A stretch of DNA of 64,000 nt, taken from Hyphomicrobiales bacterium (GTDB taxonomy: Bacteria > Pseudomonadota > Alphaproteobacteria > Rhizobiales > Beijerinckiaceae). Shown here piece by piece: positions 48,142 through 51,018 of the stretch; position 1 is the first letter of the stretch, and each line of letters opens with the position of its first letter. The stretch spans positions 1-64,000 of the forward strand of contig CANGPA010000004.1 of assembly GCA_947455645.1 (NCBI GenBank). The letters are read 5' to 3'. A model generated the notes under the pieces. The model had not been told where the DNA came from. It searched no databases and saw only the letters and a program-made list of their open reading frames with translations. A program made the position numbers and the translations under genes.

Positions 48142-48876
48142 ATGGCTAATTACGATCGCAACGCCTCCGCCTGGACGACAGGCGCCGCGCGCGTCGGCGC
48201 TGCGGAGTATGATCAGGGTCTTCGGACCCATATGCTTGGCATTTACAATTACATGACGCTGGCGCTGGGTATTTCGGCGCTCGTTGCGTGGGGTTCTTAT
48301 ATCTCTGGCGTGACGGCAAGCCTGGTTACGTCGCCGGTCGCCATCATCGTTATGTTGGCGCCGGTTGGTTTCGTCATGTTCATGTCTTTTCGCTTCGAGA
48401 AGATGAGCTACTCTTCATTGATGGGAACGTTTCTGGCGTATTCCGCCGTTATGGGTCTCTCCCTCTCGACGATCTTCATCGCTTACAAGGTTGGTAGCGT
48501 TGTACAGGTCTTTGCGATCACGGCCGCGGCTTTTGGCTCACTGTCGCTTTATGGCTACACGACGCGCCGTAACCTTTCGGCGATGGGCTCCTTTCTGGTG
48601 ATGGGTCTTTTCGGCATTGTTATCGCAATGCTGGTGAACATCTTCTTGCAGAGCTCCGCGCTTCAATTTGGCTTGAATGTGCTGGGTTTGTTGATCTTCG
48701 CCGGATTGACGGCTTGGGATACGCAGCGCCTTAAGGACGAATATGATTATGTTGCCGGCGATCAGGAACTTGCGGGCAAGGCTTCGGTGATGGGCGCATT
48801 GACGCTCTACCTCGATTTCGTCAACATGTTCCAATTCTTGCTTGCGCTCTTTGGCCAGCGGAACAACAATAATTGA
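48142..48876 (+). CDS. Bax inhibitor-1 (YccA/YbhL) family membrane protein
   Basis: A 244-residue protein with about seven membrane helices. The family core is seen in YMTLALGISALVAWGSY, GLSLSTIFIAYKV and the C-terminal GLLIFAGLTAWDTQRLKDEYD with its conserved aspartates, as in the pH-sensing calcium-leak protein BsYetJ. The exact role in this organism is unknown. A clear terminator follows 21 bp after the stop. Confidence 0.92.
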   Translation: MANYDRNASAWTTGAARVGAAEYDQGLRTHMLGIYNYMTLALGISALVAWGSYISGVTASLVTSPVAIIVMLAPVGFVMFMSFRFEKMSYSSLMGTFLAYSAVMGLSLSTIFIAYKVGSVVQVFAITAAAFGSLSLYGYTTRRNLSAMGSFLVMGLFGIVIAMLVNIFLQSSALQFGLNVLGLLIFAGLTAWDTQRLKDEYDYVAGDQELAGKASVMGALTLYLDFVNMFQFLLALFGQRNNNN

Positions 48877-48945: not shown

Positions 48946-49320
48946 TTAAATTGAGACGAGTGAGACGGGCTTATCAAGAACCCGAAGCACGCGATCAAGC
49001 TCATGTCCACGTTTCAAAACCTGACCCGCCGCGGCAATGACCGCATAAGCGCCTTGACGCCGCGCAAGACGTGGATTTTTTTCGATCCGATAAAGCGGGT
49101 ATTCGGCTGAACGTCGGAAAACCGAAAAGACGGCGCGGTCCTTCATGAAATCCATCGCATAATCGCGCCATTCGCCGGCCGCAACTTTGCGACCATAGAG
49201 ACTTAACAGCGCGGATAATTCCTGCCGATCAAAAGCGACGCGACTTTGATCGGCTCCATGATTGTCGGAGGGCCATGGAACGATGGCGGCCATCGGAAAT
49301 CCGTTATCCCCTTCAATCAA
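48946..49320 (-). CDS. DUF2794 family protein
   Basis: A 124-residue cytoplasmic protein matching DUF2794, a family restricted to alphaproteobacteria with no known function. The core AFDRQELSALLSLYGRKVAAGEWRDYAMDFMKDRAVFSVFRR and YRIEKNPRL are visible. GGAGG five bases before a TTG at 49320 supports that start; the ATG at 49293 is an alternative. It stands alone. Confidence 0.82.
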   Translation of the reverse strand: MIEGDNGFPMAAIVPWPSDNHGADQSRVAFDRQELSALLSLYGRKVAAGEWRDYAMDFMKDRAVFSVFRRSAEYPLYRIEKNPRLARRQGAYAVIAAAGQVLKRGHELDRVLRVLDKPVSLVSI

Positions 49321-49442
49321 GTAATCCTCCGTCAGACCGTCATGAATGCGTCATCATCGACATATTTGCGACCCGCTTCAAGCTGAAAAAAGCGAAGGCC
49401 TCCCTGTGGTTCAATGCAGAATTTTTATAAATCATGATTTTG

Positions 49443-49620
49443 CCGCAAAGCGGTCTTTTGATTGCCCAACTGGAAGTGAGAATTGACCATCGAAGCCGGG
49501 GTAGAATCGGTTCCGACCAGACTGCCCCCCAGCCTCACGGAACCATGCGTGATTGGACCTCGGCTTGTCCCTGACTGTTTTCCTGACTTTTTGGGGCCGG
49601 TTCAACCGGCCCCCTTTTTT
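49443..49620 (+). ncRNA. Candidate structured small RNA with its own terminator
   Basis: This 336-bp gene-free interval contains nested complementary segments: AAGCCGGGGT (49493-49502) with ACCTCGGCTT (49557-49566), AATC (49505-49508) with GATT (49551-49554), and GGTTCCG (49509-49515) with CGGAACC (49538-49544), i.e. a long rod with an internal bubble. An orphan terminator follows at 49593. A TATAAA at 49426 could be a -10 element, with a poor -35. The rod-with-bubble shape recalls 6S RNA, but the sequence was not recognised. The boundaries are estimates. Confidence 0.45.
49593..49620 (+). terminator. Orphan rho-independent terminator
   Basis: GGGGCCGG and CCGGCCCC pair around loop TTCAA and are followed by C and at least seven T. 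No open reading frame on the forward strand ends here, so it most likely terminates the small RNA candidate upstream. Confidence 0.88.
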
Positions 49621-49656
49621 TGCCTAAGCCGCCAAGGCCATCATGGCCATACTGAC

Positions 49657-51018
49657 TTAAGGCTCAAGACCGACGGCCCGGAGCGCATCGGCTTGTCGGC
49701 TTGCAACCGTGTCGATTGAAAATGAGTCGATTGCTTCATTGAACAGCTGATAAAAATTTAACTCGGCATCAAGATGTAGAAAGACGCCTCCGAGGCCGAT
49801 GGCTGCGCGATCCATAAAGACAAATTCGCGCGGCACAGTGACAGGCCCTTTTTCCTTGAGCGCCTTGTGGACGGCGAATGCCTCGCGACGCCCATACTCA
49901 CCGGGCTTCACACCATCGGCGACGGTTCGACGACGATCATCAAGCAGCGGCCCATAAATGAAACGGGCCCATAGATTCAACGTCTCGATCAATTCAGATG
50001 TGAGGCCTTTGAAACCCCATGTCTCATAGGCATGCACAATGCGATCACGATCATCGGCGAGTAAGCCGCGATAGAGATCGACAACACCACCAACAAAGCG
50101 CGATGGGAAAATTCGAATACATCCATAATCAAGCAGATTAATGCCCGATGGTGTGCCTTCTTTTTCAAAAACGGTATAATTACCGAGATGAGGATCGCCA
50201 TGAATCACACCAAAGCGGCTAAAGGGTAACCACCAAGCGCGGAACATCGCGGTCGCGAGATGATTGCGTATCTCTTGAGAAGCGTTTTTGTAGTCAAGAA
50301 TTTTTTGACCCTCAAGCCATTCCATCGCCAACAACCGCGACGTTGAAAAGTCCTGTCTAATCTGTGGCACTCTTACAAGGGGTTCATCGGCCAACATGGC
50401 TTGATAGAGTCGCGCATGTTTTGCCTCGCGTTGATAATCGAGCTCCTCGCGAATACGGGCAGCAATTTCCTTGGCTATTTCTCGCGTGTCGACGGCGGAA
50501 TCAAATTGACGATGCAGGGCAAAGAGGAGATCGAGTTGATTAAGGTCGGCCTCAACGGCAGAGGCCATATCGGGATATTGTAATTTTACCGCAAGTGATT
50601 GCCCCGCCAAATCAGTCGCGCGATGCACCTGACCCAGTGAGGCCGCCGCTGTTGGATGAAGATCAAAAGAAGAAAAGCGCTGACGCCAATCCACACCAAG
50701 TTCCGCAATCATACGCCGTTTAACAAAAGCAGCGCCCATGGGCGGAGCATTGCTTTGTAGTGTTGCAAGCTCGGCCGCATAATCTGCCGGTAAAGCATCC
50801 GGTATGGTTGCCAGTAATTGAGCAACCTTCATCAAAGGGCCCTTCAACCCACCCAGCGCTTGCGTTAAAGCGCTTGCGTGTCTTGCATCAGCGTCGTCTT
50901 GCCCCAAAAGACGACTGCCAACGATACGCGCTGCGACGCCGCCAATATTCGTGGCAACACGTGTGTATCGTAACGCCCGCGCCGCCATACGATTTTGTTC
51001 AGAATCTCGCGTCGACAT
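49657..51018 (-). CDS. ABC1/UbiB-family atypical kinase
   Basis: A 453-residue protein of the AarF/UbiB/ADCK superfamily. KVAQLLATIPDALP resembles the family KxGQ motif (here K-V-A-Q), AAASLGQVHRA is the alanine-rich loop, the lysine is in LAVKLQYP, and GVIHGDPHLGNY and NLLDYGC give the catalytic and metal-binding Asp residues. Members support ubiquinone or lipid metabolism by ATPase-like activity. It lies 57 bp after the oligoendopeptidase gene in the same direction. Confidence 0.9.
   Translation of the reverse strand: MSTRDSEQNRMAARALRYTRVATNIGGVAARIVGSRLLGQDDADARHASALTQALGGLKGPLMKVAQLLATIPDALPADYAAELATLQSNAPPMGAAFVKRRMIAELGVDWRQRFSSFDLHPTAAASLGQVHRATDLAGQSLAVKLQYPDMASAVEADLNQLDLLFALHRQFDSAVDTREIAKEIAARIREELDYQREAKHARLYQAMLADEPLVRVPQIRQDFSTSRLLAMEWLEGQKILDYKNASQEIRNHLATAMFRAWWLPFSRFGVIHGDPHLGNYTVFEKEGTPSGINLLDYGCIRIFPSRFVGGVVDLYRGLLADDRDRIVHAYETWGFKGLTSELIETLNLWARFIYGPLLDDRRRTVADGVKPGEYGRREAFAVHKALKEKGPVTVPREFVFMDRAAIGLGGVFLHLDAELNFYQLFNEAIDSFSIDTVASRQADALRAVGLEP

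Follow-up and report, generated by a model that had tools for sequence, protein, structure and literature searches.

A conserved small RNA gene divergent from DUF2794, related to BjrC174 and possibly controlled by ChvG-ChvI

An intergenic interval of the 64,000-nt stretch of DNA analysed here (the window) carries on its + strand a three-helix rod with a C-rich apical loop, followed by a short linker and then a strong terminator, between the genes for a DUF2794 protein and an ABC1 kinase. Comparison with relatives, in which the rod, the loop, the side of DUF2794 and a triple upstream repeat recur, shows that a structured RNA gene and a specific element upstream of it are conserved. We assign the locus to BjrC174 (RF02355), which is expressed as a small RNA in Bradyrhizobium, as a diverged homologue, and the evidence for this homology is strong. 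Taking promoter, structure and kinship together, we consider it reasonably probable that this diverged BjrC174 homologue is a ChvG-ChvI envelope-stress small RNA of ~130 nt that acts in trans through its C-rich loop.

Gene organization and architecture of the RNA

The DUF2794 gene (PF10984, profile match E 1.1e-40) occupies positions 48946-49320 on the minus strand, with the + strand Bax1-I gene ending at 48876 ahead of it, and the end of the ABC1 kinase gene (49657-51018, minus strand) bounds the interval on the far side from DUF2794. A sequence-only reading had described 49443-49620 as a structured RNA downstream of DUF2794; because DUF2794 lies on the minus strand, the RNA is instead divergent from this gene and upstream of it. 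The interval itself stands as a structured RNA where it contains the rod and the terminator, on the + strand, whereas its first part, from 49443 to ~49489, would be promoter instead of transcript. The proposed small RNA would thus run for ~130 nt from a putative start near 49490 to the terminator (49490-49621, + strand). Within the 64-kb window we found neither a tRNA or tmRNA nor any Rfam family at its gathering score.

Folding gives a + strand rod at 49493-49566, consisting of an outer helix (49493-49502/49557-49566), a middle helix (49505-49508/49551-49554) and an inner helix (49509-49515/49538-49544), which bears out the three nested complementary segments, with a bulge inside the rod, that had been noticed from the letters. 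The inner helix closes the C-rich apical loop ACCAGACUGCCCCCCAGCCUCA (49516-49537), whose core is conserved more highly than anything else in the family. The linker (49567-49592) contains GUCCCUGAYUGUUUUC in all 10 genus sequences, the Y position apart; it resembles the 3′ part of MmgR and may be a second pairing site. It leads into the intrinsic terminator GGGGCCGGU-UCA-ACCGGCCCC with its U tract (49593-49621), whose stem of nine pairs, eight of them GC, is followed by CTTTTTTT; the U tract is present on the + strand only. That this strong terminator has no gene of its own, as the earlier reading held, was confirmed: there is no convincing + strand gene to own it, and the ORF list has only a 78-codon frame with a TTG start at 49483 that crosses it. 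A small 5′ hairpin, GCCGCAAAGCGGT, spans two units of the upstream repeat; relatives such as L003 have sequences in which it cannot form. Taken by itself, the folding energy carries little weight (z = -2.75 with the terminator, -1.22 without it), whereas conservation is strong evidence. The rod is the minimum-energy structure in 10 of 10 genus sequences, with z values from -0.88 to -4.98 (window copy -1.41).

The neighbouring DUF2794 protein has a predicted structure with a mean pLDDT of 80, for which Foldseek returned no match at E 0.001. VIA-align with the same model placed a Mediator subunit first (Z 7.4, rmsd 3.3, 83 aligned), and its rows at Z 5 to 6 include frataxins and the DNA-binding domain of T4 MotA; by sequence, no PDB entry came below E 0.41. 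We regard none of these predicted similarities as a confident structural match and conclude nothing on the fold. The Brucella homologue BAB1_0087 is tabulated among the genes regulated by MucR (PMC10746212).

Relatives of the RNA and kinship with BjrC174

Beyond the window's own genome, plain DNA similarity recovered the locus in three genomes of its genus, making 4 of the 60 searched. DUF2794 is present in 53 of these 60, the window's own included, and the proposal to look for relatives beside this gene worked: 30 DUF2794 loci have the same upstream design, a long stem with the loop CAGCCCCCCAGCCCC or one near it and often a terminator. Judged by eye, the loop is present in 24 of the 30, with a variant in L029, absence in L022, L024, L027 and L034, and a contig end at L021. 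Of the 12 genomes of the genus, 10 have it, one (L005) a base shorter, and the contig of G011 ends too early. L024, from genome G001 of the same genus, has kept the GCC box, the stem and the terminator and lacks the C-rich loop, in what may be a natural loss of the part presumed to be active.

Applied across the order at E 0.01, the Rfam model of BjrC174, RF02355, matched 69 of 199 genomes, with 14 of them over the cut-off, and one of 14 control genomes, that of Caulobacter vibrioides, below it. Thirty loci found with this model have DUF2794 in 23 cases, divergent in 22; in L050 it shares the strand of the RNA rather than being divergent. An RNA-only pattern, which required neither the neighbour nor the promoter, gave 120 loci from named records, 102 with DUF2794 and 101 with it divergent within 1 kb. 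Among the 80 of these that were listed, the corresponding numbers are 69 and 68, and the record titles name alphaproteobacteria, or just Proteobacteria or Bacterium. The pattern fixes the loop and GTTGCCTC and is uninformative on their conservation; its set also overlaps the covariation set A1, with some species in common and the same rod in L123 and L131 as in L068 and L069.

Set A1 comprises 38 relatives, all from outside the window's genus, drawn from L016-L035 and L045-L074 where the loop was seen by eye. L021, L022, L024, L027, L029 and L034 were excluded for lack of such a loop or because of a contig end, and L046, L048, L049, L052, L060 and L061 because they duplicated retained rows exactly or nearly. 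All 15 consensus pairs, which form two helices, were changed on both sides in this set, so the paired segments are indeed kept among relatives, as had been put up for testing. The doubly changed cells number 76 versus 23.7 in shuffles and the paired cells amount to 88.7% versus 76.7%, values that none of 500 shuffles reached, the shuffles taking no account of relatedness. When the partner was slid by one column, the covariation score fell from 0.500 to ~0.24. Since G-U/U-G cells outnumber A-C/C-A cells (84 versus 10) in the pair table, the + strand is favoured as the RNA, the fold itself having been chosen on that strand. Two other sets were used: A2 has 60 rows, omits several loci including L005, L019, L030 and L035 and uses 23 of the named loci, and A4 consists of the window and 55 of the 69 DUF2794 frames.

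From the 38 sequences of A1 we built a covariance model, R1, whose training rows include the best-scoring RF02355 copies, L045 and L047 (presumably Bradyrhizobium); a second model, R2, had just 6 base pairs and was not used. R1 ranks 49473-49592 first in the window's genome (20.6 bits, E 0.035; runner-up 12.7 bits; 150 of 192 candidates scored) and gives the same copy E 0.0017 over 17 sources. Elsewhere in the genus it matched the rods of L008 and L011, scored lower in L007 and L012, and matched the terminator only in L013, L014 and L015; L009 and L010 had no match in the 17-source search, and a match in L001 was set aside as chance. The score of the window copy is modest and the reach of R1 into the genus marginal; we find membership of the window copy convincing when the R1 rank, the DUF2794 side, the loop and the promoter are taken together. 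RF02355 itself gave no match at the locus even at E 10 (gathering score 45 bits), nor anywhere in the window's genome in the order-wide search at E 0.01. Among 20 sources it exceeded its cut-off in L018, L019 and L020, at the same position beside DUF2794, and matched below it in others. The window copy has in common with BjrC174 a rod with a CAGCCCCCAGCCCC-type loop, a terminator and a place divergent from DUF2794, the last being a membership feature of the present analysis rather than of Rfam; unlike BjrC174, its loop reads CUGCCCCCCAGCC, not CAGCCCCCCAGCCCC, and the Rfam model misses it.

In the class, R1 matched 25 of 385 genomes at E 0.01, which is a lower bound, as the filters were strict and the window's own copy (E 0.035) lies beyond the threshold. 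The 32 places on the class-wide list, 30 of them with loci, were reduced to 28 loci outside the order by dropping L203, which is of the same order, and L213, a match without the loop that is not the RNA; the 28 come from fewer genomes, with G270, G397, G493 and G539 represented more than once. These loci keep the loop and mostly the box, and several keep DUF2794. Members of family f91 (L207, L209, L210, L222-L225 and L227) have a variant loop, AGCCCCCAAGCCC, with up to four R1 matches per genome, and three of the eight loci (L222, L224 and L227) hold DUF2794.

Other identities for the locus are far less plausible. The sequence-only reading had offered a divergent 6S RNA or a new small RNA. A rod with a bulge is the shape of 6S, and this is all that the two share: RF00013 has no match here at E up to 10, the apical loop is C-rich, the large central bubble is absent, and the genome's one true 6S lies on another contig (G000:C6:58431-58587, 72.5 bits, cut-off 46.4), which leaves a divergent 6S exceedingly improbable. 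An unassigned structured small RNA is supported, and novelty holds as far as the Rfam model misses this copy, but the RNA is distantly related to BjrC174, which is already known. The suhB/mmgR family (RF00519) does match the 3′ part at E 0.0016; with 27.5 bits the match stays below the 41-bit cut-off and covers only the end of the rod, the linker and the terminator, and a full copy (70.9 bits) sits on contig C20, so we rejected membership as highly unlikely. A second suhB-like place (G000:C12:39548-39616, 31.1 bits) is likewise below the cut-off. A chance hairpin would be compatible with the ordinary folding energy without the terminator, and a small protein gene with the open 78-codon frame, but the covariation reached in 0 of 500 shuffles and single-base gaps in the relatives L005 and L010 speak against these readings; we give hardly any credence to either.

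A GCC repeat upstream of the rod and its likely reader

Upstream of the rod lies a + strand element, TCA-N7-GCC-N8-GTC-N8-GCC (49432-49466), whose units GCC (49442-49444), GTC (49453-49455) and GCC (49464-49466) follow an 11-bp period. It is followed by a putative -10 hexamer, GAGAAT (49478-49483), suggested by the family profile, which reads TCACA-nnTT-GCC-N8-GYC-N8-GCC, then a -10-like nAnnnT, then the start of the rod. For this profile 107 of 142 loci were kept by box score and distance, so the GCC letters are selected, and GTTGCCTC is fixed in the named loci; the TCA and -10 letters are not fixed, and in these 107 loci chosen by box the second position of the hexamer is A in 83% and the last T in 69%. 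Relative to the putative start, the box would span about -48 to -24. At that distance an OmpR/PhoB-type activator would take the place of the -35 element.

Scoring a box as at least 8 of the 9 letters of GCC-N8-GCC-N8-GCC, against shuffles that preserve base composition only, we found it in 43 of 48 loci (the 38 of A1 and 10 of the genus) versus 1.4 in shuffles. Among the 118 pattern loci with enough upstream sequence it is present in 87 versus 3.1 shuffled and perfect in 62 versus 0.23, while 31 have no good box. In the 80 listed pattern loci there are 59 boxes, 41 of them perfect, and other windows of these loci gave 3 of 78. Outside the order, 26 of 28 loci have the box (0.56 in shuffles), those of L226 and L227 at an unusual distance. 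With periods of 8, 9, 10, 12, 13 or 14, at most 3 of 48, 6 of 118 and 2 of 28 loci reach the box score. The repeat is complete in the family consensus. The window copy has 8 of the 9 letters, and with GTC as its middle unit no neighbouring pair is exactly GCC-N8-GCC. The pattern TCANNNTNNNGCC-N8-GYC-N8-GYC occurs at 2 places in the 2.3-Mb genome (control pattern 1), the second inside a coding frame.

Motif similarity makes control by ChvI likely, and we think it quite probable that this regulator activates the RNA. The ChvI consensus reported for S. meliloti is a 15-bp motif of GCC direct repeats, N-GCC-N8-GCC (PMC9731502, citing Ratib et al. 2018), which the element of the window resembles. 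The motif proposed for Caulobacter ChvI is TTGC-N3-GCAA (PMC9731502), the motifs available for Brucella BvrR differ from GCC-N8-GCC, and an older S. meliloti ChvI motif is 11 bp long; because these published motifs differ, the attribution is likely rather than proven. The window's genome has a ChvG domain (PF13756, 105 bits), and we read the frames beside it as probable chvI and hprK genes (chvI-chvG-hprK). The chvI promoter of this genome contains GCC-N8-GCC, as do 12% of shuffles of that stretch; this match within chance, together with the GTC middle unit in the window, weakens the case. Of the class genomes matched by R1, 24 of 25 carry a ChvG domain, versus 223 of 385 overall (hypergeometric 1.4e-5, a value that ignores relatedness and assumes that both surveys drew the same 385 genomes); the R1 match of G576, counted in the 25, is probably false, and the only genome that lacks ChvG, G599, is 77% complete.

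BjrC174 of B. japonicum is expressed and called abundant, and its start was validated though no promoter motif was mapped; it had the highest promoter activity among the tested starts without a mapped promoter (PMC4842269). Such activity fits an activator-dependent promoter. In the accessible parts of the literature on BjrC174, RF02355, DUF2794 and PF10984 we found no regulator or target of BjrC174, and those on ChvI with small RNAs and DUF2794 with a small RNA contain no visible link between a BjrC174-type RNA and ChvI or DUF2794; the original description of BjrC174 (Madhugiri et al. 2012) may mention the neighbour. A top ChvI ChIP site in Caulobacter is at CCNA_R0088, another RNA gene by its name (PMC9731502, legend to Fig. 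3), and RF02355 has a weak match in Caulobacter vibrioides; the two might be the same place.

Possible mode of action and comparison with known small RNAs

In the mechanism that we propose, phosphorylated ChvI of the ChvG-ChvI system (also ExoS-ChvI or BvrS-BvrR; envelope and acid stress) would bind the repeat at the -35 position and turn the RNA on. More tentatively, the C-rich loop might then pair with G-rich sites close to where translation of envelope or transport mRNAs begins and lower their expression, as the ChvI-controlled and apparently unrelated ChvR does in Caulobacter. By analogy with GsrN and ChvR, we hold such trans action through pairing with G-rich mRNA sites to be about evenly balanced. 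The exact 9-base loop complement, CTGGGGGGC, occurs besides the RNA itself at 3 sites of the genome, all in coding frames and none in a 5′ leader, so that pairing would be shorter or imperfect, or the loop would bind a protein.

The last option, in which the RNA is a decoy without mRNA pairing and its loop binds a protein such as Rho or a C-rich-binding RNA chaperone, would account for a loop core that is kept across the class while the stem varies freely, and for the lack of the complement outside coding frames in this genome. Pairing seeds can, however, reach such conservation, and we know of no protein partner for the loop. Moreover, the alphaproteobacterial stress RNAs ChvR and GsrN act by pairing (PMC6237742, PMC5869019), and we regard a decoy as rather unlikely. 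Nearly the same low probability attaches to the idea that the small RNA is a housekeeping regulator whose GCC repeat either serves a different regulator of the OmpR/PhoB type or belongs to a constitutive promoter. The motif by itself names no protein, and a repeat of this kind could be recognised by other regulators of the OmpR type; the deviating Caulobacter and Brucella motifs and the abundance reported for BjrC174 (PMC4842269) also point that way. Against it, the family repeat agrees in spacing and letters with the S. meliloti consensus (PMC9731502), the RNA co-occurs with ChvG, and CenR is reported to read TGA-N8-TGA instead.

ChvG-ChvI control is the preferred reading. With slightly less confidence than for the locus itself, we favour a widespread, mostly vertically inherited alphaproteobacterial envelope-stress RNA, known until now only as the orphan BjrC174, that would be governed by ChvG-ChvI via the triple GCC box, would act through its C-rich loop and in some lineages would be carried in two to four copies. 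In alphaproteobacteria, symbiosis, virulence and the responses to acid and envelope stress are under the control of ChvG-ChvI. If the reading is right, this system gains a post-transcriptional arm common to many families, the strong BjrC174 start without a mapped promoter motif is explained, and DUF2794 is given a context.

Among known small RNAs of this group, several share single features with the RNA of the window. ChvR of Caulobacter crescentus, the one characterised ChvI small RNA in the literature consulted, represses an outer-membrane receptor mRNA, pairs via its second and third stem-loops and is described as specific to this species and located upstream of recF/gyrB (PMC6237742). It resembles our candidate in its control by ChvI, presumed here, with no shared place apparent; with DUF2794 and ABC1 kinase as neighbours instead of recF/gyrB, we rejected it as a homologue. 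GsrN, a stress small RNA of Caulobacteraceae in which a loop with six cytosines pairs with G-rich mRNA (PMC5869019), likewise has a C-rich loop, the stress role being presumed in our case, and its identity with the RNA is ruled out by the locus. EcpR1 is, like the candidate, a conserved stress small RNA of Rhizobiales; it differs in its location downstream of divK-pleD in S. meliloti (PMC4414408), which rules out identity here as well. With MmgR/suhB, the RNA has in common a pyrimidine-rich linker ahead of the terminator. If ChvG-ChvI does control it, the RNA would play in alphaproteobacteria the part that the sigma-E and OmpR/Cpx small RNAs play in enterobacteria.
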